A stretch of DNA of 64,000 nucleotides, taken from the NCBI RefSeq assembly GCF_003838195.1, contig NZ_RCBY01000015.1, positions 1 through 64,000 on the forward strand, read 5' to 3'. Under the pieces are notes generated by a model. It saw only the letters and a list, made by a program, of their open reading frames with translations. It was not told where the DNA came from and did no database searches. Shown piece after piece: positions 12,790 to 62,076 of the stretch. The stretch comes from Okeania hirsuta. Its GTDB lineage: Bacteria; Cyanobacteriota; Cyanobacteriia; Cyanobacteriales; Microcoleaceae. The translations under genes and the position numbers were made by a program. Every line of letters begins with the position of its first letter. Within the stretch, counting starts at the first letter, position 1.

Positions 12790-15477
12790 TTATTTAGAAA
12801 TCGAACAATTTAACCCTGCATCTTCAGGTTTTGAATACTTCTCAGGAATAAATACGAAGTTAAACACTTGATTATCACAACGAACAACCTTAACTAACTC
12901 CAGGGGGTGTTTTTTGCGATCGCCAGTCCTCGGTTGAAATGTAATTTCTCCTGTTACCCCATCAACGCGGAAATTTTCACCTGCCAATATCTTCTTAATT
13001 TCCCGACGATGTTTTTCCCCATTTTCCTCAATTCCTTTGATTAGCACCTGAGCAGCATCATAACTCAAAGCTGTACGATCGCTAACAGGACCTCCCCACA
13101 ATTCTTTAGCAGTCTTAGCAAAATTATCTTTGGGATTGTTCAAATGATGCCAATTAACGGTGACCATAAGTTTTTCCAAGAGTTGGGGTTGACCAATCTC
13201 TAGGGTTTTGGGACTGTAAATTGAGGAATCACTAACTATCCAGTTTTGACCATCATTTTCTTCGATGATTTTCAGAGCATGAGCAAAGGAATCAGTCACT
13301 TGCCCATCTGGGACAAGAACAATAGCTGATTTACCATATTTTCTGACTTTTTGGATAGCATTTTTAGCATTAAAATTAGGCCGAGAAATATCAAATGAAT
13401 CAATGAGATATCCTCCTTTTTCTGAGAGTTTTTGTTTAAAATGTTTTTTGTAATCACTAGAATAGGGACTAGCAGGGTTATAAAAAATTGTAGCTTTGTT
13501 TTGATTAATTTTATTCATCAAGACATCAACCATTGCTTCTGCTCGAAGATGATTAGTTGCGATAATTCGGAAGAAAAATTTTCGAGGTTGGTCTGTGAGT
13601 TCAGATGTGGCCGCACCAGGAGAAACTGATACTAATTGATTTTGGTTATATATATCTACAGTTGCCATCGTCATCTCACTAGTCCAAGAAGCAATAACAC
13701 CTAAAATATCTGACCGTTTGACCAGGGTTTGGGCAACCTTCTTCGCCTGAGTCTCTAAGTTAGCATCATTAGCAATGATAATTTTCAAACCTTTTCCATT
13801 CAAGCTTTTCGAGTCTAGAAAATTTGCACCCGGTAAAGTCAAATTAGAGGATTTTTTCTGATTGAATAAACTCAAGTTAACTTCTGTTTGTGCTTGAGCT
13901 ACTCCCCGCAAGAGTTCTTCAGCGATTTCTGCATTACTCACCTGACCCGTTTCATCTTGTAAAACTGGAACTACAACTGCAATAGTATGGTAATCAACAC
14001 CTGTCGCTTCTAAAAGAGCATTATTGAGATATATTAAAGTTTCTGGCTCTCTTCTTTCTGTCTTCCAGCTTTCCTGGAAATTTTGAGCTGCCTCCCAATA
14101 ACTTTTTTTGGTGACAAAACAATCACTCCATTGTTGTCGAATATGACTATACCAAATAGGTAGAAAATGATTCAATGGTTTTTGGCATTCGGCAACTGCA
14201 TCCACACCCCTTTGTTTGTCTCGTGGTTGAAATAGTTTTACCAGAATTTCCTCACCTTTACTGATGTTATCTCCAAGGGTTTCAGGTTGAGGATAAAACC
14301 AACGACAAATTCCCAAAACACCAACGGTCGTCAAGAAAAACAGAATTATGTGCTTGGGTTTTATTGGAGGTTCAGGTTCAGGTTGAGGCCAATATAGTTC
14401 AGGTGTCGCAGGATTTTGGATGAGTACAGGGAGTCTAGATGCTCTTGGATAAAACAATTCATTAGGAATAGCAATTTCCAGTTGTTGCAAACGTGTCCGT
14501 GCTTTTCTAACAGAGGTGTGTAGAGGTTGCCCTTGCGTAAATTCTTCCAGGAAATATTGTAAAAAACGCCGTGCTACTAGATCGGGAACGGGTTCTCGCA
14601 TCACAATCAAATGGGGAATATTAAAATCAGCTAAATATTCAGCAATACCCAGTCCATCACAGGAATTAAAAATTGCCAGCTTTACTTTTGAGGCAGCTTT
14701 CCTCAGAGCTTCTCTCAAAAGATCGATTGATAAATTTAAGGCATGATCGACATGAATAGTCTGACCAGAACTGTGCCCAGCATAAAAAATAATATCCCAA
14801 TTTCCGAGCCAAAGAGTATCAAATAGTTCTTGAGGAGTCAGAGAATTTCCTCTCGCTGGAATAGAGGTAATTCTTGCCCCATATCTATTTAAGTTTTCAA
14901 TCAGTTCCCGATCCTGTTGCAGTTGTAATCCCCCCTCATCGCTACCAAAAATTGCCAGAATGTGAATCGGTTTTTGCAACGTTTCTGTTGGTCGATTATA
15001 TCTAGACAAGAGGGCAAATTCTGCCTGGGGTAAAAAATACGGTTTCTCAAATAAATCCCAATAATCCCAGGATAATTTACGCAGATAATCATTTGATGTA
15101 TCGATGATAACTCGTACTGATTCATTTGTAGTTCTATATTGAAGTTCTCCTATAATTCGCGCTGTTATAGCTCCAAAGATAGGTTGCCCCAACCAATTTC
15201 TGACATTAGATTCTAGGGTCAGAGTAGCATTTTGACACTCTTCTAAAATGCAGACGTTGGTAGTTTGCCCATCTGGTATCTTTATCCCTCGACCTCCCAA
15301 CTTAGTATAAATGTTTCTCCATTCGTCATAAACTCTAGGAAAATCAGGGTTAGGGGGCAATTGAGGACACTTGCCTTCTCTGGCAATGATTCTACCATCT
15401 TGCCAAAACTCCAGGGAAACAGGAAAACCTAATTCAAAACTGCCTTCTTCTATTTTGATAACAACTTTTCTAGTCAT
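12790..15477 (-). CDS. CHAT protease-like domain fused through a membrane helix to a periplasmic ligand-binding domain
   Basis: An 895-residue protein in three parts. Residues 1 to about 165 form an unassigned beta-rich N-terminal region. About 170-365 is a CHAT (caspase-like) domain with the catalytic His in IFYAGHSSG (His235) and Cys in FNSCDGLG (Cys273). A Pro-rich linker is followed by a transmembrane helix at about 375-395. The remaining 500 residues resemble the periplasmic-binding-protein fold of branched-chain amino-acid ABC transporters (IAVVVPVLQD, GVIASWTSEMT, SPGAATSELT, FFFRIIATN, LSYDAAQVLIKGIEENG). This suggests a receptor in which an external ligand controls a cytosolic cysteine protease; the arrangement is visible, the mechanism is inference. 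It lies downstream of sigma-like and DUF1822 genes on the same strand. Confidence 0.85.
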   Translation of the reverse strand: MTRKVVIKIEEGSFELGFPVSLEFWQDGRIIAREGKCPQLPPNPDFPRVYDEWRNIYTKLGGRGIKIPDGQTTNVCILEECQNATLTLESNVRNWLGQPIFGAITARIIGELQYRTTNESVRVIIDTSNDYLRKLSWDYWDLFEKPYFLPQAEFALLSRYNRPTETLQKPIHILAIFGSDEGGLQLQQDRELIENLNRYGARITSIPARGNSLTPQELFDTLWLGNWDIIFYAGHSSGQTIHVDHALNLSIDLLREALRKAASKVKLAIFNSCDGLGIAEYLADFNIPHLIVMREPVPDLVARRFLQYFLEEFTQGQPLHTSVRKARTRLQQLEIAIPNELFYPRASRLPVLIQNPATPELYWPQPEPEPPIKPKHIILFFLTTVGVLGICRWFYPQPETLGDNISKGEEILVKLFQPRDKQRGVDAVAECQKPLNHFLPIWYSHIRQQWSDCFVTKKSYWEAAQNFQESWKTERREPETLIYLNNALLEATGVDYHTIAVVVPVLQDETGQVSNAEIAEELLRGVAQAQTEVNLSLFNQKKSSNLTLPGANFLDSKSLNGKGLKIIIANDANLETQAKKVAQTLVKRSDILGVIASWTSEMTMATVDIYNQNQLVSVSPGAATSELTDQPRKFFFRIIATNHLRAEAMVDVLMNKINQNKATIFYNPASPYSSDYKKHFKQKLSEKGGYLIDSFDISRPNFNAKNAIQKVRKYGKSAIVLVPDGQVTDSFAHALKIIEENDGQNWIVSDSSIYSPKTLEIGQPQLLEKLMVTVNWHHLNNPKDNFAKTAKELWGGPVSDRTALSYDAAQVLIKGIEENGEKHRREIKKILAGENFRVDGVTGEITFQPRTGDRKKHPLELVKVVRCDNQVFNFVFIPEKYSKPEDAGLNCSISK

Positions 15478-15534
15478 TATTCTTAATTCATTGTTATAGT
15501 TTTAATATTATATTCGTTTCAATAGACTTCTCCA

Positions 15535-15785
15535 AAAATTGCTCTTTGTAGGTTGGGTTGAGGAGACGTTAGCGCCAGCTTATCCGTTAGGATAAACCCA
15601 ACACCAAATCTCAATGTCACAAGGATTTTATATTGTCAAACTTCTAAGATTTAGTACTATATTCTTGAAAATTGCTCTTTGTAGGTTGGGTTGAGGAGAC
15701 GTTAGCGCCAGCTTATCCGTTAGGATAAACCCAACACCAAATCTCAATGTCACAAGGATTTTATATTGTCAAACTTCTAAGATTT
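15535..15785. repeat. Tandem duplication, 133-bp period
   Basis: Two copies, 15535-15652 and 15668-15785, are near-identical over about 118 bp. Each contains a hyphenated palindrome built on GGTTGGGTT and AACCCAAC. The block lies directly upstream of the CHAT gene start and separates it from the DUF1822 gene. Confidence 0.88.
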
Positions 15786-15817
15786 GTAGGAGTTCTAGTG
15801 AGGTATAGTCCTGGAAA

Positions 15818-15886
15818 TCCCCCCTAACTCCCCTTGAGAAGGGGGGAACTGGAAGTCCCCCTTTTTAAGGGGGATTTAGGGGGATC
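15818..15886. repeat. CCCCCTAA/TTAGGGGG inverted repeat
   Basis: A composite hairpin of CCCCCCTAACTCCCC, AAGGGGGGAACTGG, AGTCCCCCTTTTT and AAGGGGGATTTAGGGGG, a common cyanobacterial dispersed repeat. Open frames across it are not genes. Confidence 0.55.
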
Positions 15887-16023
15887 ATCTATGTACCTCA
15901 TCAGGCTGAAAACCTCTATAAGTCCTGATTTGCTACTACTATTCTTCTTGCAGACCAATATTTTTAGACATTGTTGTTGGGTTGCGCTACCGCTTAACCC
16001 AACCTACCATATCCTTTATGTAA

Positions 16024-17280
16024 TCAAATTATGAAATCCTTTGTCACCGTGGCAGAATTAAGGCTAACTTGAAGACTAAAGCGATCGCCTGGATCGGCGG
16101 TAAATTTGAACTGAATATAATCATCTCTTTCTCTAGCACGAATTTCAAATAAAGATTCTCCCATTTCATCTAAACCAATGAGTTTTAAATTTGCTGGTAA
16201 AAAACGTTGGTCTTGGAGAGGATAAACTCTAGAAAGAACAGCAAATCTTTGGTTTGGTTTTGGTAAAATTGCTATCATCAATGCCACTGGAACTCCTGCT
16301 AGTTGCATTCCTAGATCGATAGCGCGACGTACACCTGCTGCTGGGTGACTAGGGTCAATTTCCCACAACAATTCGGCAATTTGCCAGCGAGTTTCTTCAT
16401 CTTCTGTTGTTTGTAAAATATTTACTAGAGCTTGATTTACTTCTGTCTCTGAGAGTTCAGGTTGAGATAAATCTGCCTGTGTTTTGTCTCTTTGTTTTTG
16501 AGTCATTTGGAATTGTTTAAGAAATTTTTTAACTACTTTGGGAGATAATTTTTCTGTTGTTTTATCTAAACTGAAAGCCATTTGTATAATCGGTTTACGA
16601 TTTCCTATAAGTTCTTCCACTGGTTGCCAACCTTCTCTCAAAATACCTTCTAACCAACTTGTTAATTTTTCCCAATATTTTGATTCAGTCAAGGTATTTT
16701 CTGGGATTTTAATAGCTACTGGACTCAAATATTTAAGATTTAAAATTAAGTGACTGGAGTCAGAATTTAGTTCAGGCAAAGAAAGTTGATAATTTCCTAT
16801 TTTGTTTTTTTGTAAAGACTGATTTATTAATTTATCATATCGTATAAATCCAATTATAACAGCTTCTTCTTCCTCTACTAAAACCTGTATTACTATATAG
16901 AAATGAGCAGCAAAATCTGGGGAATTAATCATTTTTTCGGGAATTTCAATTCCTTCATTTACTATACTCTCATTTGTCAGTAAGCAAACTTTAAATCCGC
17001 CGACTTGCAGATTACTCATTGGTTCTGAACTGATAATTTGATTAGCTGGCAGAGATTCAATTTGATTATCTAATGTTAAATGCCGATCGCTCAACCTTCT
17101 TTTTAGTGCGAATAAACCCAAAATTTTCAAATAAGCTTGCCATTTTTGGGCTTCATTATTAAATTTACCACTCAAGAGAGTTGCTTGCTGAAAATCTTCA
17201 GGTTCTAAATCAATAGTTTCTGAGTGCAATTGTCGGTAATACTGTCTGTTTGTTTGCCCATAATTAGAACAAATATTCAT
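16024..17280 (-). CDS. DUF1822 family protein
   Basis: A 418-residue cyanobacterial protein of the DUF1822 type: acidic, mainly alpha/beta with no signal peptide or membrane helix. Recognisable parts are the N-terminal QKWQAYLKILGLFALKRRL, the central GFIRYDKL region, and the C-terminal beta-rich RFLPANLKLIGLDEMGE and EIRARERDDYIQFKFTADPGDRF. No biochemical role is known to me. The gene starts 90 bp after the sigma-like gene ends, on the same strand, and is followed after 546 bp by the CHAT receptor gene. That ordering suggests that it links the two as an adaptor or anti-sigma-like component, which is inference only. Confidence 0.8.
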   Translation of the reverse strand: MNICSNYGQTNRQYYRQLHSETIDLEPEDFQQATLLSGKFNNEAQKWQAYLKILGLFALKRRLSDRHLTLDNQIESLPANQIISSEPMSNLQVGGFKVCLLTNESIVNEGIEIPEKMINSPDFAAHFYIVIQVLVEEEEAVIIGFIRYDKLINQSLQKNKIGNYQLSLPELNSDSSHLILNLKYLSPVAIKIPENTLTESKYWEKLTSWLEGILREGWQPVEELIGNRKPIIQMAFSLDKTTEKLSPKVVKKFLKQFQMTQKQRDKTQADLSQPELSETEVNQALVNILQTTEDEETRWQIAELLWEIDPSHPAAGVRRAIDLGMQLAGVPVALMIAILPKPNQRFAVLSRVYPLQDQRFLPANLKLIGLDEMGESLFEIRARERDDYIQFKFTADPGDRFSLQVSLNSATVTKDFII

Positions 17281-52133: not shown

Positions 52134-53399
52134 ATGGTATTTAGAAATAAGTTGAATCACCAAATTGATTACTTTAACTTACCAGTACAAGCTGAACCAA
52201 CTCAGCATCAATAGGCAGAAATTAATCACATTCTTGATGTCTGTAAAAGTGTATATAACTATGCTTTAAGAGGGCATAAAGATTGGTTAAGTTCAAGGAA
52301 GTCACCAATCAATATTTGTTCGATTATTTCTGAATATATTATCCCTGGTGATACCCCTTACCCTAATTACAATTATCAGGCAAAAAATCTAACAACAGCC
52401 AAGAAAACTAATCCTAAGTTAAAATCAGTTAATGCTCAAGTTTTACAACAAACTTTAAAACAATTAGACAGGGCATTTTCTGAAATGAAATCTCTGGGTA
52501 AAGGCTTTCCTAGATTTAAGAAAAGGATGAGAAGCTTTGTTTTTCCTGCCATGCTGAAAAATTATCTAGGTTGCGGTAGATTCAAGTTGCCTCAACTGGG
52601 GTGGATTAAAATTAGGCAAAGTAGACCATATCCAGAAGTTATGGTAGCTAAACAAGCTAGGATAGTAAAAAAAGCTACGGGTTATTATTTGATGGTTAGT
52701 TTTACTTCATCAAAGTCAGTGCCAGATAATTTAGTAGGGAAAACATCATTAGGTATAGATGCAGGGATAGAAAGTTTTGTCGCTACTTCTACAGGAAAAT
52801 TAATCAAGGCCCCTAAGTTTTTATCAGGTCAACTACGCAAGCTTAAATTGGCGAGCGACCCCGCGCCGCCTCCAGGCGCAAGGGAACGCGCGAGCTTGCT
52901 GCAAAGAAGGTTAAAACATAAAAATAAAGGGTCGAGTAATTGGTCAAAACTCCAGAATAGAATAGCTAGATTGGATGAGAAAATCTCTAATACAAGACGT
53001 GATTGGCATTTCAACATAGCTCATCAACTTTGTGATTTAGCAGACAATATTTTTGTCGAATATGTTAACTTTAATTCCTGGTCTAAAGGCATTGTCAGGA
53101 AACAATCTTTAGATAGTGGTATAGGTCAGTTTATTAACGAAATCTTACCTTATGTTTGTTGGAAACGAGGTAAGTATTATGCCAAAGTTGATAAGAATTA
53201 TACATCTCAAGAATATCCTTTATGTGGGCATAGACAGAAAAAGAAACTCTCTGATAGAAAGCATAATTGTAGCAACTGTAGTTATCAAATAAATCGTGAT
53301 GTAGCTGCTGCAAAAATAATCAGAAATAGAGGATTAATAGCCGTGGGGCACACGGCAAAAGAAAAGCGCACCGCCTGCGCTGAGGTTCCCTCAGCGTAA
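52134..53399 (+). pseudogene. tnpB: IS200/IS605-family TnpB, inactivated
   Basis: An RNA-guided nuclease of the TnpB type, ancestor-like to Cas12. From ATG at 52134 the frame is broken by TAG at 52212 (27th codon, in EPTQHQ-stop-AEINHILDVCKSV) and stays open afterwards to 53399, with an internal ATG at 52485. RuvC residues are visible: Asp in LGIDAGIESF, Glu in IFVEYVNFNSW, Asp in NRDVAAAKII. The zinc ribbon reads SQEYPLCGH where SQxCPxCGH is expected, so its first Cys is Tyr. An in-frame G/C-rich insert (about 52,851-52,898) adds some 16 residues, and the C-terminus is rewritten by a second insert. No TnpA is present. The guide-RNA region would be expected near or after the 3' end; it is not resolved. 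Confidence 0.85.
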
Positions 53400-53632: not shown

Positions 53633-53815
53633 CAGATTAGTTTGATTTTTTTGAGCATCATATTTGAGTAAATATTCACATTGGTAGAGAAATTTTCTAC
53701 CCCTCTGTGAGTAACTTCAGTTGAAGTGACAGAGGGAAAAAAATTTGCTTACCAAAAATATCCTCTTTCCAGATTAGTTTGATTTTTTTGAGCATCATAT
53801 TTGAGTAAATATTCG
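53633..53815. repeat. Duplicated 3' end of dndD around a hairpin
   Basis: A 46-bp segment at 53,633-53,678 repeats the last coding part of dndD (53,770-53,815) with an offset of 137 bp. Between them is a long hairpin (CCCTCTGTGAGTAACTTCA against TGAAGTGACAGAGGG, 53,701-53,736). The duplication lies just after the dndD stop codon. Confidence 0.75.
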
Positions 53816-55731
53816 TGAGCGATCGCCTCTAAGTTACGGAGATTTTCTACTTCTGATTTACAAATCTCAGTATCGGTAGATAAAAGAATAACTTGATGAC
53901 TAGCAGAAGGGAAATAACGTTCTACTAAATTCTGACGGTGGGATGAATCTAATCTACCCAAAGGTGTATCAATAGCGACGGGTAAATGTCTACCAGAAAC
54001 CTTTGCCAAACCCCACAAAAACGAAATTGCCAAAAGCTGTTTTTCTCCAGCAGAAATGCGATTTTTAGGAACAACTTGCCCTTGATTATCGTAGAGAGAA
54101 AGAGCAAAATTATTATTATCAATAGCCACGCGATGCACCAAGTCTGATTTATGCAAAAGATAGCGGAAACATTCAGTAACTTCCATCTCTAGTTTATTCA
54201 ACTTTTTCAGGGTTAACTTCTCCTTAAATAGCTGCAAAGTTTTCTTCACTTTACCAGAAGATTCAATGATATTTTGAATATTGTGACGTTCGATAGTTTC
54301 ATCAGTATAGCTAAATAATTCCTTCTTAGTTTTAGTAATAGCATCCTCCAATTTTTTACGCTCGCGTTTACTATTTTCACAAGCAATCTGTATCCTAGCT
54401 AACTCAGTTTGTGCCTCCTGTAAAGCAGCTTCCAAAATTTTATAAGCTTCCGGAGATGCTGCACTTACTAGCTGCTTTTCTAGAACATTAATTTCCACTT
54501 CTAAATCCTTGAGACTGGTTAAACTTTCCCGAGCATTTTTTCGACAATTTTCAATCTCATAGCGCAACAAATTTTCTAGTAAAGTTAGCGCCTCTTCATC
54601 TGCTAATAACCAAGGTTCATCAATTTGATTAATATCCTCTTCAATCATCAGATTTTCTCGATCGAGAAACCTTTGAATTTTACTAATTTTGCCAGCAGGA
54701 ATAGACAACTCATTCAGATAATTAACTAAACGTTGGTCTCTTTCCTGAAAAGCATCTAAAGCTATTTCTGCCTCATGGCGTAAAATCTCTACATCACCTT
54801 GAGAACTTGCTTGTTCCAAAAGAGGAGAAATTAAAGCCAGAGGTAAAGCTCCCGCAGCAAGTTCAACCATTTCCTGACGAGCATTTTCCATCTCTAATTC
54901 GACATCTTGAAATTCTTGTTTTAACTGACTTCTTTCAGCAGCAATTTTTCCCCCTTCCGAGACAAATTTTCTCATAGCTTTTTCTTGCTTTTGTTGAGCT
55001 TTTTTTAATTGCTTTTCCAAATCTACCAATTTTTCTGTAGCAACTTCAAAATCTTTTTTTTGCTGATGGAGTTTTTGTTCAATTTCCTCTAAATTTGCTA
55101 TTTCTTTAGTCTTGGCAAATTGCTTCTTTTTCCGAGTCACCAAAATATCCAAATCTGCCGCGAGACGTTCGGCTAATTCTAATCCTAATAATGACTGAAT
55201 TGCATCTACTACTAAAGGTGGTGGTGTTTCTAGTTCAGCTAATTCTTTTACTTGTTCTCCATCAAATAGAAATAAGTTAGAAATTCCTAAAGGTAAGAGA
55301 TTTTCTATATATTCATCCCAGGCATTTGCTAAGTAAGAATCAGGCCATTCGCCATCAAGAATTCCTAAACTATCTTTGCCATCTTTAGGATTTTTTTCCC
55401 AGGTACGAACTACGCGATATTCTACAAGTTGGTCGTCTTGAATATGTTCAAAAGCTAATTCAATGCGAGTTTTTTCTGTAGGGGGAGTATTACGATTTAC
55501 GCATTGAGAAAGAAAGTCGCTATAAGTTAAGTTTCCTCTAGTTGAACATTGGGTGCGATGACCGTAAAGTGCGAGGCGAATGGCATCTAAAAGAGTAGTT
55601 TTTCCTCCTCCATTCATACCTCCAAATAAGATGATGGGGCGAGGGCGATCGGTAAGGGTAGGGCGGAGGTTTATTGTTTGTTTACCGGAGTAGGGTCCGA
55701 AATTTTGTAAGACGAGTTCTAGGAAAATCAT
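53749..55731 (-). CDS. dndD: DNA phosphorothioation ATPase DndD
   Basis: A 660-residue SMC/RecN-like ATPase of the Dnd pathway, which swaps a non-bridging oxygen in the DNA backbone for sulfur. Walker A is GGMNGGGKTT at 37-46. A coiled coil of about 300 residues fills the middle (IEQKLHQQKKDFEVATEKLV and onwards), with an ISAGEKQLLAISFLWGLAKV signature helix and Walker B LPVAIDTPLGRLDSSH near the C-terminus. Length is normal for DndD. It is the last dnd gene on the minus strand; dndC lies upstream but about 1.07 kb away across tandem repeats, whereas in known operons the two nearly touch. No dndE follows. Confidence 0.92.
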   Translation of the reverse strand: MIFLELVLQNFGPYSGKQTINLRPTLTDRPRPIILFGGMNGGGKTTLLDAIRLALYGHRTQCSTRGNLTYSDFLSQCVNRNTPPTEKTRIELAFEHIQDDQLVEYRVVRTWEKNPKDGKDSLGILDGEWPDSYLANAWDEYIENLLPLGISNLFLFDGEQVKELAELETPPPLVVDAIQSLLGLELAERLAADLDILVTRKKKQFAKTKEIANLEEIEQKLHQQKKDFEVATEKLVDLEKQLKKAQQKQEKAMRKFVSEGGKIAAERSQLKQEFQDVELEMENARQEMVELAAGALPLALISPLLEQASSQGDVEILRHEAEIALDAFQERDQRLVNYLNELSIPAGKISKIQRFLDRENLMIEEDINQIDEPWLLADEEALTLLENLLRYEIENCRKNARESLTSLKDLEVEINVLEKQLVSAASPEAYKILEAALQEAQTELARIQIACENSKRERKKLEDAITKTKKELFSYTDETIERHNIQNIIESSGKVKKTLQLFKEKLTLKKLNKLEMEVTECFRYLLHKSDLVHRVAIDNNNFALSLYDNQGQVVPKNRISAGEKQLLAISFLWGLAKVSGRHLPVAIDTPLGRLDSSHRQNLVERYFPSASHQVILLSTDTEICKSEVENLRNLEAIAHEYLLKYDAQKNQTNLERGYFW

Positions 55732-55738
55732 TTTTTAG

Positions 55739-55800
55739 GGAATAGGGAATAGGGAATAGGGAATAGGGAATAGGGAGTAGGGAGTAGGGGGAAAGGTAGT
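55739..55800. repeat. GGGAATA heptamer repeat
   Basis: Five or more copies of GGGAATA, drifting into GGGAGTA, start right after the dndD start codon region. They occupy the place where its ribosome-binding site would be on the minus strand (read there as TATTCCC). Confidence 0.85.
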
Positions 55801-55939
55801 GGGTTAACGAAGTCAGAAGTCAGAAGTCAGAAGTTAACCCACCCCTCGCCCCTCCCCCTCCCAGGAGGGGAAGTAGGGGATTTCAGCTCCGCTCCAAAAA
55901 TCTTGCGCCTTAAAAGGCGGGGTTTTAGACCCATATTAT

Positions 55940-56800
55940 TTTGATAATTAACTTGATTTTTTTATTCTTAGAATTTACCTTTTTTCGGTAGGAGATAAGT
56001 TTGACAAATCCAATTTTCTTGTCAACCAACGCCCGAATTTTTGCCTTTGACTTAGACTGAGAAAAACAGAGGTTTCCCGCAGATGAGTTTTCCAGAGAAA
56101 TTTTCATAACTTTCTAGTCATTGTTGAATTTTCCCAGTAGAAGGTAAATCTGACAAATCCAATTTTCTTGTAATTTTTGCCTTTGACTTAGACTGAGAAA
56201 AACAGAGGTTTTCCACAAATGAGTTTTCCAAAGAAAATTTCATAACTTTCTAGTCATTGTTGAATTTTTCCCAGTAGGAGGTAAATCTGACAAAGAGAAT
56301 TTTCTTGTTAACCAACGCCCGAATTTTTGCCTTTGACTTAGACTGAGAAAAACAGAGGTTTCCCGCAGATGAGTTTTCCAGAGAAATTTTCATAACTTTC
56401 TAGTCATTGTTGAATTTTCCCAGTAGAAGGTAAATCTGACAAATCCAATTTTTTTGTAATTTTTGCCTTTGACTTAGACTGGGAAAAAGAGAGGTTTTCC
56501 AGAGATGAGTTTGTCAGAAAAATTTTCATCAACAGATAATTTTTGCCTTTGATCTAAGACTGGGAAAATAGAGTTTTACTAGAGATGAGTTTGCCAGAAA
56601 AATTTTTATAAATTCCTAGTCACTATTGAATGTTTCCTGTAGGAAGTAAGTCTAACAAATAGAGTTTTACTGTCAACCAACGCCCGAATTTTTGTCTTTG
56701 ACCTAGATTGGGAAAATAGAGTTTTACAAAAGATAAATTTTCTGGAGAAAGTTTCATATTTTTATTTCTCCCCTGCTCCCCTATTCTCCTGCTTTCCCAC
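55940..56800 (-). repeat. Degenerate tandem repeat array between dndC and dndD
   Basis: About five to six diverged units of 110-150 bp. On the minus strand each unit starts ATGAAAATTTCTCTGG-like and contains TCAGTCTAAGTCAAAGGCAAAAATT, then (in longer units) CGGGCGTTGGTTGACAAG, and ends near CTTCTACTGGGAAAATTCAACAATG. Each unit encodes its own short peptide of 25-45 residues (MKISLENSSAGNLCFSQSKS type; the unit nearest dndC reads MKLSPENLSFVKLYFPNLGQ), but no two peptides end alike. Whether any is translated is unclear. The array interrupts what should be a dndC-dndD operon. Confidence 0.8.
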
Positions 56801-56804
56801 TCCC

Positions 56805-58361
56805 TTACTCGATATCTGCCGAATTTTGACGAGAAAATTTCATGTTTGCCCAACTTAATTGTTTAATTTTCTCTGAAACTTTTCCTTGCTCGACAGCTTC
56901 TTTAAGGTCTCTTTTATTATGAGCGTTTTGAATAGCTTCTTCCTTGGAACGAGAACTTGTTTCAAAACATTGTTCGAGACTTTCATAAATCTTATATCGG
57001 TGAGACTTAATATAATATTGCCGCTCTGTATCTAACAGTTTTGCCATAAGTTCAAGGTGCATCTCATCCCCATTACATATTTCTTCTAATACTGACCATT
57101 CATCACTACCTAAAAGACTTATTCCTGCACCAGGACGACAGTCTTTAAATTTCTCTCCTGTTACTTCTTTATATATACGAGGTAAACTATCATCAAACTC
57201 GTGTTTTTCCTCTAACCAAATGCGTCTAATTTCACTCAGTTCTTCCAGAGAAATCAGAGTAATATCTCGCATATTTTCTGGAGCAGTTTCACGAATTTGT
57301 GTTTGAGCTTCTAACAGTTTTCTCAGTAAAGTATCTCGCCATTCTTTTTTATATGGACCAGGAATTGGTTCTACAGAAACTTCACCATCTATATTCCGTT
57401 CAAATAGTTGAACTGTACCCCAAATTCGCCGAAAATCTCTTTTATCTCTGTCCGAAATATCTAGTTCCCGACGCAAATCTATCAGAGGTTGTAACCATTC
57501 TTTTTCCTCATCATTTTGAATCATTGCTGACATAGATTTATCACTATCTACTAAGGTGCAAACCCAGCACCCAAAACGAGAACTTCCACAACTAGGAGTT
57601 GAAGTATCAACTACTAACGGACATTCATTATCTTCCGTCGCACCTCGATACATTGCTAGTAAATCTTTATTACTATTTCCCCAAGGATTTTCCCACTGCA
57701 TTAAATATAGCCAAACTTCATCAGTTCGCCAGTCCTCAATAGGGGAATAAATTAAAGAATTAAGTAAATTGGCATTAGGACTAAGGCGTTCCCGTACTCG
57801 TTTTTCTTCTAATCTTTTCATTGTTCTAGCGCGGTTAACACTTTCAGCTTTACGAGTACCTAAAACTAGGATAACTTCTCCATTAGTTCGTACAGCATTA
57901 CGAATAAAAAGATTAGATGGTTCAATTTTTAAACGTCCCGTACACCATCTAAATTTTAGACGGGGTGCGGGATAACCTTTGCCAATTAAACCTACCCAAT
58001 ATGTATATTGAATATCTGGTTGTAGAAGGTGAGTTTCTATTGGCATTTTCTGTTCTTGGGCAACTCTCTCAATGTTTTTTAGAGATTGTTTTACCCAAGC
58101 AGAAACATAAGGATTTTCTACTCGTGTATCAGTAGTAATTACATAAATTTTTTTAGTTCTTTTTTCTACTGGCAAAGTAGCGATCGCATTCCATATAAGT
58201 TGCAAAACTGCGGTACTATCTTTTCCTCCAGAATATCCAACAATTAAGGGGATTTCATCAAGGCAATATAATTCTTGAATTTCTATAGTTAGCTTTTCTA
58301 TATCTTTGATTAGTTCAGCAGTTGTTCGCTCTGGAAAAAGAGATTTTTGTATTCCTACCAT
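56805..58361 (-). CDS. dndC: DNA phosphorothioation sulfurtransferase-like protein DndC
   Basis: A 518-residue PAPS-reductase/ATP-pyrophosphatase-like iron-sulfur protein that activates the DNA backbone for sulfur incorporation. The pyrophosphatase P-loop SGGKDS is at residues 44-49. YVITTDTRVENP, PRLKFRWCTGRLKIEP and LGTRKAESVNRA follow. The four cluster cysteines are in RWCTG, CPLV and SCGSSRFGCWVCTLV. Length is at the normal value for DndC. It begins 42 bp after the HNH gene ends, so the two are likely co-transcribed. Confidence 0.93.
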   Translation of the reverse strand: MVGIQKSLFPERTTAELIKDIEKLTIEIQELYCLDEIPLIVGYSGGKDSTAVLQLIWNAIATLPVEKRTKKIYVITTDTRVENPYVSAWVKQSLKNIERVAQEQKMPIETHLLQPDIQYTYWVGLIGKGYPAPRLKFRWCTGRLKIEPSNLFIRNAVRTNGEVILVLGTRKAESVNRARTMKRLEEKRVRERLSPNANLLNSLIYSPIEDWRTDEVWLYLMQWENPWGNSNKDLLAMYRGATEDNECPLVVDTSTPSCGSSRFGCWVCTLVDSDKSMSAMIQNDEEKEWLQPLIDLRRELDISDRDKRDFRRIWGTVQLFERNIDGEVSVEPIPGPYKKEWRDTLLRKLLEAQTQIRETAPENMRDITLISLEELSEIRRIWLEEKHEFDDSLPRIYKEVTGEKFKDCRPGAGISLLGSDEWSVLEEICNGDEMHLELMAKLLDTERQYYIKSHRYKIYESLEQCFETSSRSKEEAIQNAHNKRDLKEAVEQGKVSEKIKQLSWANMKFSRQNSADIE

Positions 58362-58403
58362 TTTTCAATACTCCTAAAATTTTTTTTAATTTATTCTGCA
58401 TTT

Positions 58404-59375
58404 TTATGAGATAAATATATTTTGGCGATGCCATTGTAAAGCTTCTATTCTGGGGAAAGATTCTTTTTCATTTGGCAACCAAAGCTGATTACTATTAAAT
58501 TCCTTCATTGGTTTAGAATTGGGTGATTCTTCTAAGAAATTATTGGAAACGATGATTTTATAATCATCAGTTATGGTAAATAAACCTTTATCGAATGCCC
58601 AATGATGATTTTTACACAGTGATATGCCGTTATCTATTCTATTGTCATAAAATTTGGCAAATGGTTTGATCTGGGCTCCATCTACAATATTTTGGTTTAT
58701 TGACATACTGAGTTTCATTCCACAAAAAGCACATTTATAGTTATAGGTATGTACAACTGCTTTACGAAAGATACTATCTCTAACTACAGATTTTTTGAAA
58801 TATGATTTAGGTTGTTTTTGCTGTTGGTTTGATAAATTAATTGAACTTTCTTTCTCATTATTGTCTTTTGGGAATCTTTCATTAATTACGATAAGTTCTT
58901 TAATTTTTTTTTGATTAGCTGAAAACCAAGTTGCAATGAGTACGTCTATTAATTCTTTTCTAGAACTTTGCTCTTGTAGTAGTTCAAAAAGTTCTGGGTC
59001 TAAACTGGCATACTCAACGACCTGTTTTAACTGTTTAACAGAACTTGGCTGCTTTAAAGAATTAATTTTAGACTCAAGATGCCAGAATCTTTCACTCTTT
59101 AGAAAATAAAAAGGAAGGTGTAAACGATTTTTACCTTTATAAATACCAGATGATAAAATATCCCAATGTTTATTGAAGGTACTAATTAGTTCTTCAGATA
59201 CAGAAATATGATTATTATTGATTACACAAGGTTTAATCAAATCAATCACAGATAAAATCAAGATTGGTTTATATTCGGCTTTAGGACTAAGCTTTTGACT
59301 TGTCTTAAGTTCGGTAAAATATTGACAGTAGTATGCTAATTTTTTTTCCCTTTTTAATTCTTGATTTTTGCTCAT
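58404..59375 (-). CDS. HNH endonuclease with N-terminal sulfur-binding-like domain
   Basis: 323 residues in two domains. The N-terminal ~110 residues (YKPILILSVIDLI, then HLPFYFLKSERFWHL) resemble the SBD module of phosphorothioate-dependent McrA-type restriction enzymes. The C-terminal domain is HNH: CAFCGMKL (Cys215, Cys218), then VDGAQIKPFAKFYDNRIDNG and ISLCKNHHWAFDKGLFTI. The position usually holding the general-base His (AHI) is Gln in DGAQI, which may weaken or abolish cutting. It precedes dndC by 42 bp on the same strand. A nuclease that cut phosphorothioated DNA would be harmful to a host that makes it, so it is more likely a regulated or modification-inhibited restriction partner; this is inference. 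Confidence 0.82.
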   Translation of the reverse strand: MSKNQELKREKKLAYYCQYFTELKTSQKLSPKAEYKPILILSVIDLIKPCVINNNHISVSEELISTFNKHWDILSSGIYKGKNRLHLPFYFLKSERFWHLESKINSLKQPSSVKQLKQVVEYASLDPELFELLQEQSSRKELIDVLIATWFSANQKKIKELIVINERFPKDNNEKESSINLSNQQQKQPKSYFKKSVVRDSIFRKAVVHTYNYKCAFCGMKLSMSINQNIVDGAQIKPFAKFYDNRIDNGISLCKNHHWAFDKGLFTITDDYKIIVSNNFLEESPNSKPMKEFNSNQLWLPNEKESFPRIEALQWHRQNIFIS

Positions 59376-59849
59376 TTATAGCCCCAGGCAAAACATCTAT
59401 ATTTTCAGTATTTATTTGTCATAAACTCGCAGATTAACTAAATAAATATGCCAAATTAAATCTCAAATAACTACCAGAACTAAATTTACTATAACTATTC
59501 TCATTCCTCCTTTTTAAAATTACAAAGTTAACTTGATTAGTTTCTCAGCAATACCTGTCACTGTAATGTTGTACTTTGAAAAAATCAATAAATTTTTCAC
59601 CACTCCTCTTTACATAGAGAAATAAATTATGGTAATCAAGAATGATTTATGAGAAATGATATTAAATTTTCTTATAAATCAAGTAATACAGCAATCAATC
59701 TCTCACATCTGACACCTGATTGCTATATTTATTATAGCGATGCTAAATTGGTTGTAAAAATTTTTATAACAGTTAATTTTCAAGCAAAACCTTTAATATT
59801 CTGATTCTTAACTATCACCAAAATATTACAACTTAAATTGGATTTATAT
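59376..59849. other. Divergent upstream region of the HNH-dndC genes
   Basis: About 470 bp between the HNH start and the family B element; A/T-rich, no gene. It should hold the promoter of the HNH-dndC unit and is a candidate site for control by the divergent dndB product. Confidence 0.4.
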
Positions 59850-59953
59850 GGGTGTATCTCATATTTGCAAAAATACTTTTTTCCTATATATTCCCTGTTC
59901 CCTGTTCCCTAAAGCAATAAATTTTTGGCTTTATTCAAAATTGAGAGACACCC
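59850..59953. mobile_element. MITE-like element, family B, copy 2
   Basis: Ends GGGTGTATCTCA (59850) and TGAGAGACACCC (to 59953) are inverted. Flanking 8-mers ATTTATAT (59842-59849) and ATTTCTAT (59954-59961) differ by one base and are the likely target duplication. It is the uninterrupted form (104 bp) of the element at 9,635-9,841. Confidence 0.85.
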
Positions 59954-60136
59954 ATTTCTATAGATGTTATTTCTATTTTAAGTAAGAATGCAATCACGAT
60001 ATTAAATATTAAAATCTATTAATACCAATTCACTTTAAAAATGTCATAAATAGTTTTAAACTTTAAATTTGAAATAATTTCCTGAAATTACTGAGCGTGT
60101 CTTTCATATCGCCCATAGAAAAGTTTTTAGGAAAGA

Positions 60137-60280
60137 ATGAAACCGAACAGCTTACTTCAATATCTAAAAAAAGTGCTTGAGAATTTAGGAACAAAATATG
60201 TCATTAATTTTGCTTATGCACTTACTGCTGAGTTTGAAGCAATTTTCAGTGTCAAAAATCTCAAAGTATCCTTATTTTAA
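60137..60280 (+). CDS. Possible 47-residue protein
   Basis: An open frame of 47 codons, MKPNSLLQYLKKVLENLGT onwards to KNLKVSLF, with AGGA at 60129-60132 about four bases before ATG. No family recognised. It lies between the HNH gene and dndB on the dndB strand, 194 bp before dndB. It may be a real small gene or a remnant. Confidence 0.25.
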   Translation: MKPNSLLQYLKKVLENLGTKYVINFAYALTAEFEAIFSVKNLKVSLF

Positions 60281-60474
60281 GAGTAAAAAAAGACATTAAT
60301 ATTCACCCCTTGTGTTTCATTGGTTAATATTGACATAATAAATTGTATATGATATAAAAATAACTTACAATTAACAATCATATCAATCAAATAGTTTTTA
60401 AAAACATTTGTTAACAAAAATTTATATATACATATTTTTTTAAAAATCGTTAAAAATATTTCCCAAAATCAGCG

Positions 60475-62076
60475 ATGAAAAAAACCAATAAACCCACCTC
60501 AGAAATAGCAAAAGAAATTTTAGAAAACGATAATCGAGAAAGAGAAGCGATCGCTATCCTTTTAGACAAACATATAGGCAAAGATGACAGACTTTTAGTA
60601 CAAAAAACCATGATGGGAAAAACGGAAGCTTACATCGGTTCTGTCACTCTAGAATGGTTAGATAGTCGTGTACGTTTTGCCTCTCAACTACCATTATTTC
60701 GACAAAAATTTGATGTAGAAACAGACAATATAATTCGGGATGCAGAAACAATAGATGAAATTCAACAACGTCCCCTAGATTGGTCTCGTCAAGCTCCATT
60801 AACTCTATATTTAGCAACAAGAAAAGCTCATAAATTTCCAGCAGTATTAGTAGTAATTAGCCCTAGTTGGGTAGATAATCCTAAAGCAGAAGAATGGAAT
60901 AAAAATGGAAAAGCAAATAAATCTGCTACTGATTTTTTACCCCTAGATTCAGAGGGAAAAGTAGGATTATTAGACCTACGTTTAGAAGTAGCAGTATTTG
61001 CCTTAGATGGTCAACATCGACTGATGGGAATTCAAGGTTTAATGGAATTAACAAAAACAGGTAGGTTGCCTAGATATAACAAACAAAAAAAACCAGTAGG
61101 TGCAGCTATTAATATTGATGATTTAGCAGAAACCCATAATATTGAATTACCAGAACTACAAAAATTAGCTTACGAACAAATAGGTATAGAATTTATTCCG
61201 GCAGTAGTAAAAGGAGAAAGTAGAGCACAAGCACGACGGAGAGTTAGGTCAGTTTTTGCTCATGTAAATTTGACTGCTGTGAAATTAAGTAAAGGGCAGT
61301 TGGCATTATTAAATGAGGATGATGGGTTTGCCATTGTGGCTAGAAAAGTAGCAATTTATCATCCTTTATTAAAGGAGAAAGATAATAGAAATCCACGAGT
61401 GAATTGGGATAGTGCTACTGTAGCAACTAAGTCTACTGTTTTAACAACTCTTCAGGCAATTCAAGAAATGTCTGAAAGATATTTAAAACCTCGTTATCCT
61501 CATTGGAAACCTTCAGATAAAGGTTTAATTCCAATGCGTCCCGAAGAAGAGGAATTAGAAGAGGGACTAGAGGAATTTATGTTGTTTTGGAATTATTTAT
61601 CTAATTTACCTAGTTATTCAAGATTAGAAAATGGTGCCGAAACTCCAGAATTGAGAAGATTTAGTTTTGAAATAAAACCAGGAGAAGGTCATGTTTTATT
61701 CCGACCTGTTGGGCAAATTGCTTTTTCTGAAGCTCTAGGAATTTTAATATATAAAAAAGGCTTTTTTTTGGAGGAGGTTTTTCAGAAATTAAATAAGTAT
61801 GATGTGGATGGTGGTTTGAGTGGAATAGAATCTCCTGACTCAATTTGGTATGGGGTTTTATATGATTTTAATCGCAAACGAATGTCAGTAGCTGGGAGAG
61901 ACTTAGCGATGAGATTGTTTATCTATATATTAGGTGGAGTTTCTGACAAAATGGAACGAGCAGAAATTCGTCGAGAGTTGGCAGAAGCAAGGAGAGTTGG
62001 GGATAATCAAGCTGTAGATTTTCAAGGTAAGTTTGTGGAATTAAAAAAGGTAGGGTTGCCGAAAATTTTGTCTTAA
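60475..62076 (+). CDS. dndB: DndB-like DGQHR-domain protein
   Basis: A 533-residue protein with the defining motif FALDGQHRLMGIQGL (DGQHR at residues 178-182) of the DndB/DGQHR family. RAQARRRVRSVFAHVNLTAV and the downstream KLSKGQLALLNEDDG match the DndB core. DndB of Streptomyces acts as a repressor of the dnd operon and influences modification site choice. This one is longer than the classical DndB (about 370) by a C-terminal extension (from about residue 320), so it belongs to the larger DGQHR subgroup. It is transcribed away from HNH-dndC, with 1.1 kb between. The divergent placement suits a regulator. Confidence 0.82.
   Translation: MKKTNKPTSEIAKEILENDNREREAIAILLDKHIGKDDRLLVQKTMMGKTEAYIGSVTLEWLDSRVRFASQLPLFRQKFDVETDNIIRDAETIDEIQQRPLDWSRQAPLTLYLATRKAHKFPAVLVVISPSWVDNPKAEEWNKNGKANKSATDFLPLDSEGKVGLLDLRLEVAVFALDGQHRLMGIQGLMELTKTGRLPRYNKQKKPVGAAINIDDLAETHNIELPELQKLAYEQIGIEFIPAVVKGESRAQARRRVRSVFAHVNLTAVKLSKGQLALLNEDDGFAIVARKVAIYHPLLKEKDNRNPRVNWDSATVATKSTVLTTLQAIQEMSERYLKPRYPHWKPSDKGLIPMRPEEEELEEGLEEFMLFWNYLSNLPSYSRLENGAETPELRRFSFEIKPGEGHVLFRPVGQIAFSEALGILIYKKGFFLEEVFQKLNKYDVDGGLSGIESPDSIWYGVLYDFNRKRMSVAGRDLAMRLFIYILGGVSDKMERAEIRRELAEARRVGDNQAVDFQGKFVELKKVGLPKILS

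Follow-up and report, generated by a model that had tools for sequence, protein, structure and literature searches.

The window analyzed here, a stretch of 64,000 nucleotides, corresponds to positions 1 to 64,000 of contig NZ_RCBY01000015.1 (hereafter C57) of the cyanobacterium Okeania hirsuta, whose assembly counts 8.79 Mb in 716 contigs. It contains a group of dnd genes, related to phosphorothioate (PT) modification of DNA, together with a gene for a nuclease that joins a sulfur-binding domain (SBD) to an HNH domain. An original prediction had described dndD, dndC, a DndB-like gene of the DGQHR type and the HNH nuclease as a reduced Dnd island. All four genes were recovered by Pfam and TIGR profile matches, and the HNH gene does lie 42 bp upstream of dndC on the same strand. 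Our observations are computational throughout. The features of the locus are as follows:

53749-55731, minus strand: dndD, ABC ATPase (TIGR03185, 688.6 bits for a cut-off of 245.85)
56805-58361, minus strand: dndC, PT sulfurtransferase subunit (TIGR03183, 691.6 bits for a cut-off of 290.4)
57732-58091, minus strand: DndC residues 91-210, the segment exchanged jointly with the SBD across cyanobacteria
57945-57977, minus strand: DndC specificity loop, residues 129-139, GYPAPRLKFRW (loop as defined in PMC12193691)
58404-59375, minus strand: SBD-HNH nuclease gene, 323 residues (Pfam HNH_2, 4e-9; fold search, SBDHga Z 18.7 and TagI Z 13.9)
58404-58790, minus strand: HNH half of the nuclease, residues 196-323, including the stop
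58671-58673, minus strand: codon 235, read as CAG (Gln), at the position of the predicted catalytic His
58881-59375, minus strand: residues 1-165 of the nuclease (SBD), putative PT-reader module co-varying with DndC
60475-62076, plus strand: divergent dndB-like DGQHR gene (Pfam DndB, 1e-12; TIGR03187, 190.5 bits)

Searched against its own genome, DndC retrieved only itself. DndD gave its best PADLOC match with PbeC (934 bits) and 781 bits with DndD, and the DGQHR protein reached only 18 bits with the canonical DndB model TIGR03233. The nuclease scored 114.5 bits against NF045808 ("phosphorothioated DNA-binding restriction endonuclease"), under the strict cut-off of 180; this copy and the nucleases of four relatives range from 106 to 126 bits, all below that value.

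The nuclease is laid out as SBD, linker and HNH domain. Comparison of a profile, built from 15 homologues, with the PDB retrieved SBDHga (8h0l, 7.8e-27), TagI (8e-7), VcaM4I (6yex, 2e-4) and, weakly, ScoMcrA (0.016). An AlphaFold2 model built from 49 rows (confidence scores pLDDT 78.2 and pTM 0.77) was then aligned with VIA-align. Its SBD part matched SBDHga with a Z score of 18.7 (141 residues, 2.4 A), SprMcrA with 12.9 and ScoMcrA with 12.7; its HNH part matched TagI with 13.9 and VcaM4I with 12.1. The predicted structure agrees with the SBD-like N-terminal domain proposed originally, and an SBD fold is supported by this model. SBDHga is said to bind PT promiscuously. On the full 323 residues Pfam reported HNH_2 only, with no nucleoside triphosphatase (NTPase) domain, no SAD/SRA domain and no DUF262 plus DUF1524 architecture. 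Short genes holding an SBD alone occur beside the SBD-HNH gene in two distant cyanobacteria (L182:9867-10412, 181 residues; L183:9969-10541, 190 residues).

Residues were compared in an alignment of 48 of 74 full-length rows plus the window protein. The pocket formed in ScoMcrA by Pro165, Arg/Lys117, His116 and Ala168 corresponds, by motif and profile alignment, to P88, K36, Y35 and F91. The pocket proline is kept in 47 of the 48 other rows, and the position of K36, equivalent to ScoMcrA R117, holds Lys in 39 and Gln in 9 of them. Residue 235 is His in 48/48 other rows and Gln in the window. Profile alignment and PMC6212794 place it on TagI His229, so that the residue lost would be the water-activating, catalytic His. 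We infer that H235Q abolishes cutting; because of this substitution, which the original prediction had missed, the window nuclease has probably lost catalysis, unless the base in codon 235 is a sequencing error.

Joint exchange of the SBD and DndC residues 91-210

In different cyanobacteria, the SBD has been exchanged together with DndC residues ~91-210 while the DNA between them stays conserved. The loci examined are drawn from the best 80 of 471 matched stretches in public genomes, all 80 titled as cyanobacteria. When two loci share a near-identical HNH half but have strongly divergent SBDs, DndC diverges too, chiefly at residues ~81-210. In the Nostoc pair L134/L152, DndC identity over successive blocks of 40 residues is 97, 85, 57, 68, 43, 82 and 88 %, and in L121/L150 it is 93, 95, 78, 70, 55, 92 and 98 %; in the control pair L107/L109, whose SBDs are alike, it stays at 90-100 % across the same seven blocks. 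A further pair, L127/L167, resembles the swapped ones, but its DndC N-terminus and HNH half diverge as well. At the DNA level, L134 and L152 are 61-66 % identical in the SBD; identity rises to 87-94 % in the 2.3 kb that follow (HNH half, dndB and start of dndC), after which comes a dndC stretch of ~480 bp at 60-76 %. The conserved 2.3 kb excludes hitch-hiking on a single tract for this pair.

Partial correlations were computed on the 56 of the 80 loci that passed coverage filters on HNH, DndC and DndB, using DndC intervals of 30 residues and controlling for HNH-half and DndB distances. SBD distance correlates with DndC 91-120, 121-150, 151-180 and 181-210 (r = 0.41, 0.57, 0.42 and 0.57; 0/500 permutations each). 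All other intervals, bar 451-480, lie between -0.10 and 0.13. With the rest of DndC also controlled, the correlation between SBD and DndC 91-210 is 0.60 (0/500), and that between SBD and the rest of DndC, with the segment controlled, is -0.12.

The SBD was also reduced to two states (small residue plus L/I ahead of the PF motif, or not), and so was the DndC loop (R[NQKR]R, or not). Over 72 loci (71 of the 80 plus the window; L176, without the SBD motif stretch, was counted as class 0), the two classes agree in 69 cases (counts 52, 2, 1 and 17; p = 2e-13, not corrected for phylogeny). A backbone tree, drawn from the remainder of the locus, has 14 changes of SBD class and 15 of loop class. It yields 12 independent pairs, of which on average ~10.3 show the loop class shifting in the same direction as the SBD class and none in the reverse direction (median p of the sign test, 0.002). 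A tree of DndC 91-210 for these 72 loci has 3 changes of SBD class. In FastTree trees of single segments (n = 57, the 56 filtered loci plus the window), it changes once on DndC 91-210 versus 7, 10, 8, 12, 12 and 12 times on six control segments. We found no paper describing this co-exchange in a search restricted to a library of open-licence papers.

In Okeania and its kin, four genomes (G002, G025, G010 and G028) share an alternative DndC 91-210, with 90-92 % mutual identity and 62-65 % to six others. G002, the only one of the four with a readable SBD, has a divergent SBD (55-62 % to the others) and an HNH half at 83-91 % (the ruined G025 copy being left out). Between G002 and G004, identity is 62 % for DndC 91-210, 99 % for DndE and 96 % for DndD, which indicates that DndE does not follow the DndC segment in this comparison.

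The specificity loop proposed in PMC12193691 from predicted structures and mutants falls inside the co-varying segment, which was located here by a separate route. The Arg-Xxx-Lys triplet of the window loop corresponds to the pattern that this paper assigns to GpsGCC, and GGCC is therefore the motif predicted for the window genome. The loop rule seems too coarse for cyanobacteria, since both SBD classes contain R-X-K/R triplets. Compared with that loop, the cyanobacterial co-variation spans ~120 residues, and the triplets RHG, RHT and RNG match none of the three published patterns. PMC10853773 places target diversity in DndE, whereas the co-variation observed here lies in DndC 91-210.

Linkage and loss of the nuclease, and dispersed dnd genes

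The SBD-HNH nuclease is a regular component of cyanobacterial dnd loci, and a search for the HNH-dndC pair in other genomes, suggested at the outset, found it. dndC is located downstream of the HNH gene on the same strand in 76 of the 80 loci: at 400 bp or less in 35, behind an inverted dndB in 37 and after a larger gap in 4. Three of the four remaining loci (L125, L138 and L155) meet a contig end within ~1.5 kb of the HNH gene; in L177 no dndC was present in the 5 kb examined. Co-transcription of HNH and dndC, a key element of the original prediction, is not general and loses weight as an argument, because of the inverted dndB found between the two genes in nearly half of the linked loci.

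The association also holds for 386 genomes of the phylum. A strong HNH match (best E <1e-60; the gene need not be intact) was obtained in 39 genomes, of which 36 also carry dndC, versus 58 of the 347 others (Fisher p = 1e-21), and strong matches occur in 36 of the 94 dndC genomes. The three exceptions are G066, with an N-truncated HNH gene, putative transposase genes nearby and no dnd match in 18 kb; G179, with a broken HNH gene and a dndD fragment; and G215, with a full-length HNH frame, a C-terminal fragment of dndC, and both dndD and dndE. The view of a reduced, recently acquired island is unsupported: dndC exceeds its cut-off in 52 of 59 relatives (own genome counted) and neighbours the HNH gene in 19 of 20 loci retrieved as HNH matches, L047 being the exception.

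Eleven genomes of the genus and nearest kin with dndC, window included, were compared for decay of the nuclease. The gene is broken or gone in nine of the ten close kin, and intact in G003. Insertions of 130 bp near codon 302 and of 134 bp near codon 254 are present in G001 and G011, respectively. The G021 frame is interrupted by a stop at codon 213. In G002, codon 128 is a stop and there are indels, one of them a 24-bp deletion; G016 has stops and a 292-bp deletion, codon 235 being missing. The G025 copy is ruined, with TAT at codon 235; in G004 the match is reduced to 24 C-terminal residues, and no HNH match was found in G010 and G028. DndB, DndC and DndD are free of stops and gaps in all 11 genomes (dndD of G010 meets a contig end).

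Between the window and G003, the ratio of nonsynonymous to synonymous substitution rates (dN/dS) is 1.26 for nuclease residues 166-323 and 0.24 for the SBD half, against 0.11 for dndC, 0.13 for dndD and 0.09 for dndB; the synonymous distances of the two gene halves differ 12-fold, which implies a mosaic locus, so these ratios are to be taken as indicative. The HNH half counts 19.5 nonsynonymous and 3.5 synonymous substitutions. Gross decay of the window HNH does not appear from conservation: the protein deviates at 6 of 83 conserved columns, the median being 2 and the highest count 10. The case for a disabled HNH domain thus rests on H235Q, on the substitution pattern of the HNH half and on the state of the gene in close kin. 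The G016 locus is flanked by tandem partial copies of the 3' ends of dndB and dndD (L048:5987-6879 and 15039-16254).

PT-related genes of the window genome are spread over at least three contigs. The absence of dndE, part of the original prediction, proved wrong at the genome level: dndE is encoded at C201:43281-43592, unlinked to dndC (TIGR03184, 134.7 bits). dndE and dndC are on separate contigs in the same-genus genomes G001-G004 too. Some relatives with good assemblies show genuine dispersal: G043, a genome in a single contig, has dndC at 634,070 and dndE at 3,974,850, and in G046 and G047 the two genes share a contig at distances of 772 kb and 270 kb. These placements run against PMC10853773, in which DndD/CxC and DndE constitute an obligate pair, encoded as a dndD-dndE gene pair, and missing members are mostly blamed on poor assemblies.

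The search for DndA or IscS returned five TIGR03235 matches (cysteine-desulfurase-like), all under the DndA cut-off (best 459.8 vs 480); an IscS-type enzyme could stand in for DndA. As to the claimed absence of dndFGH, DptH/DndH (TIGR03238) had no match in the own genome, and none above cut-off in the 386 phylum genomes (3 weak matches); 14 control genomes were also silent, leaving the sensitivity of the model unproven, and DndF and DndG were not searched. PMC8569181 reports dndFGH to be absent from cyanobacteria.

A third contig, also missed originally, carries two further genes:

G000:C124, L203:9019-10407 and 14046-16112: Pbe-type helicase and CxC/PbeC ATPase

The helicase exceeds the cut-off of TIGR04095 ("dnd_restrict_1") and matches PbeA models solely from position ~245 onward. 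TIGR04095 matches occur in 89 of the 94 dndC genomes of the phylum; 91 of 97 are in open frames shorter than 560 residues, like that of the window genome, and 6 in frames above 700. Frames below 560 residues are too short for the nuclease part of PbeA. Upstream of their SBD-HNH gene, 20 of the 80 loci carry a second DndD-like ATPase (21-24 % identical to the window DndD); in L107 (L107:1207-3195) PADLOC identified it as PbeC.

Interpretation and relation to known systems

EcoWI, SprMcrA, Ksp11411I and SBDHga from Hahella share with the window nuclease an N-terminal SBD of the same fold, an HNH domain and the lack of an SRA domain. Unlike them, it remains under the NF045808 cut-off. They attack PT-DNA and are seldom found beside dnd (linked in <3.6 % for the PT-dependent enzymes studied, PMC7461809), whereas the present nuclease is embedded in a dnd locus and co-varies with DndC. 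Similarities also exist with the wHTH(SBD)+SAD+HNH nucleases of PMC10853773, in which a PT-reading winged helix occurs in Dnd loci as a proposed component of self/non-self restriction; no SAD/SRA domain was found here. That paper already proposes SBD/wHTH-HNH nucleases of Dnd loci as a replacement of DndFGH; both the linkage and a general model are published, and a restriction architecture distinct from DndFGH, as announced in the original prediction, was thus not a new idea. PT modification with a single HNH-type nuclease instead of DndFGH is also known from IscS-DndBCDE-DndI (PMC11662687) and SspABCD-SspE; both DndI and SspE have a DUF262-DUF1524 architecture and NTPase activity, unlike the window SBD-HNH protein, which has no recognised NTPase domain. 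The orphan dnd genes of cyanobacteria surveyed in 2021 (PMC8569181) resemble the present case in phylum and scattering of dnd genes, and probably in the lack of DndFGH. In that survey PT restriction is absent from cyanobacteria and an antioxidant origin was inferred; unlike this view, the linked SBD-HNH protein is a candidate cognate nuclease.

We favour, with a probability of about 0.55, a cyanobacterial PT restriction-modification cassette in which reader and writer change specificity together and whose nuclease is probably disabled in the window. Sulfur would be inserted by DndC and DndD, along with DndE from its separate contig and probably a desulfurase of the housekeeping type acting on cysteine, at a short motif selected by DndC ~91-210, the segment that contains the specificity loop. 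The SBD of the adjoining nuclease would read the same motif, where PT would most likely mark self and block the nuclease, so that unmodified invader DNA would be restricted. A lineage changing its motif would exchange the SBD and the DndC segment jointly through recombination, and would retain its HNH half, its DndB and the remainder of DndC. The window locus would now probably be a modification-only remnant, as in the relatives with a broken or lost nuclease gene. The reasoning is that a reader which stays next to the writer and varies along with it should recognise one and the same motif, and that in a living cell PT on self must not trigger self-cutting; protection by PT, rather than licensing, is accordingly the reading we infer. 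The modification-gated restriction enzyme of the original prediction is therefore best supported for the family, because the SBD co-varies with the DndC specificity segment, and is probably no longer represented by an active enzyme in the window.

In its strongest form, for which we see about even odds, this would be a two-protein PT restriction-modification system, a type-IV-like sulfur reader turned cognate enzyme, in which the SBD and DndC 91-210 are matched target-recognition modules with about ten independent exchanges. DndC, not DndE, would then be the main source of motif choice, and the SBD, otherwise known from attack on PT-DNA, may in this case recognise self. Mosaics differing mainly in the SBD and DndC 91-210 are natural chimeras with which the Dnd subunit that picks the PT motif becomes testable. 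So does a defence role of cyanobacterial dnd, with strong SBD-HNH matches in more than a third of the dndC genomes and a reader co-varying with the writer.

Several observations weigh against this interpretation. At the position equivalent to ScoMcrA His116, no more than 13 of 48 rows have His, and the Gln seen in 9 of 48 at the Arg117 position recalls R117Q, which lowered binding in ScoMcrA (PMC6224610). Besides H235Q, the window protein deviates at just 5 of 82 other conserved columns. DndC 451-480 also correlates with the SBD (r = 0.28, 0/500), and some intervals with r ~0.12 give low permutation counts (301-330: 6/500). Restricted to the minority SBD class (n = 13), the partial correlation turns negative (-0.48, reached by 495/500 permutations); for the majority class it is just 0.22 (0/500). 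The SBD and loop classes, though not the correlations, were set after the association had been seen, which weakens the tree and pair tests. In G001, DndC 91-210 is 74-78 % identical to both Okeania types, though its SBD resembles one of them. The full-length HNH frame of G215 beside a broken dndC is awkward for a nuclease toxic when unprotected, and the HNH protein may be accessory, because the TIGR04095 helicase tracks dndC more closely. Finally, the pairing of the two classes could also come from a PT-cutter having to avoid the host motif.

This last possibility corresponds to an ordinary type IV enzyme, attacking foreign PT-DNA of other motifs, with the DndC pairing reduced to avoidance of its own. 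The nearest characterised relatives do cut PT-DNA (PMC7461809, PMC6224610), the SBD fold and pocket proline are retained, and the gene is frequently lost among Okeania kin; yet such enzymes are rarely near dnd, as noted above, and avoidance would permit many SBD/DndC combinations where a single pairing dominates (69/72) with no opposite pairs. We hold it to be quite improbable. Defence licensed by PT, in which binding of the SBD to host PT switches the nuclease on and phage DNA is then damaged, as in SspE (PMC11662687), also requires reader and writer to match and hence predicts the co-variation; it accommodates G215 as well, a nuclease harmless without PT being tolerated beside a broken dndC. 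As SspE and DndI couple an NTPase to a DUF1524-type HNH and Pfam finds no NTPase domain here, another switch would be needed, and we consider this unlikely.

The effective restriction partner of cyanobacterial dnd could instead be the Pbe-type helicase with the CxC ATPase, the SBD-HNH protein being a dispensable accessory or regulator. The helicase is found in 89 of 94 dndC genomes versus 36 of 94 for strong HNH matches, the window genome carries both Pbe genes, and the HNH gene has been lost repeatedly. This remains doubtful, since it leaves the joint exchange of the SBD and DndC 91-210 unexplained and since most helicase frames, that of the window genome included, could not hold the PbeA nuclease part. 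For the window genome alone, Q235 might reflect repurposing, a cutting-dead SBD protein being kept as a PT-reading regulator beside dndC. The frame is open across its 323 codons and the SBD half has the low dN/dS given above, but recombination may shape this ratio in view of the 12-fold synonymous difference, and close kin carry plain pseudogenes; this alternative is highly improbable.

Two minor features complete the description of the locus. Degenerate direct repeats, 54-286 nt long, occupy much of the dndC-dndD gap (55912-56758); the gap measures ~40 bp in relatives, L035 and L042 among them. A gene of the IS605 OrfB/TnpB type (52485-53399) lies near the end of dndD.

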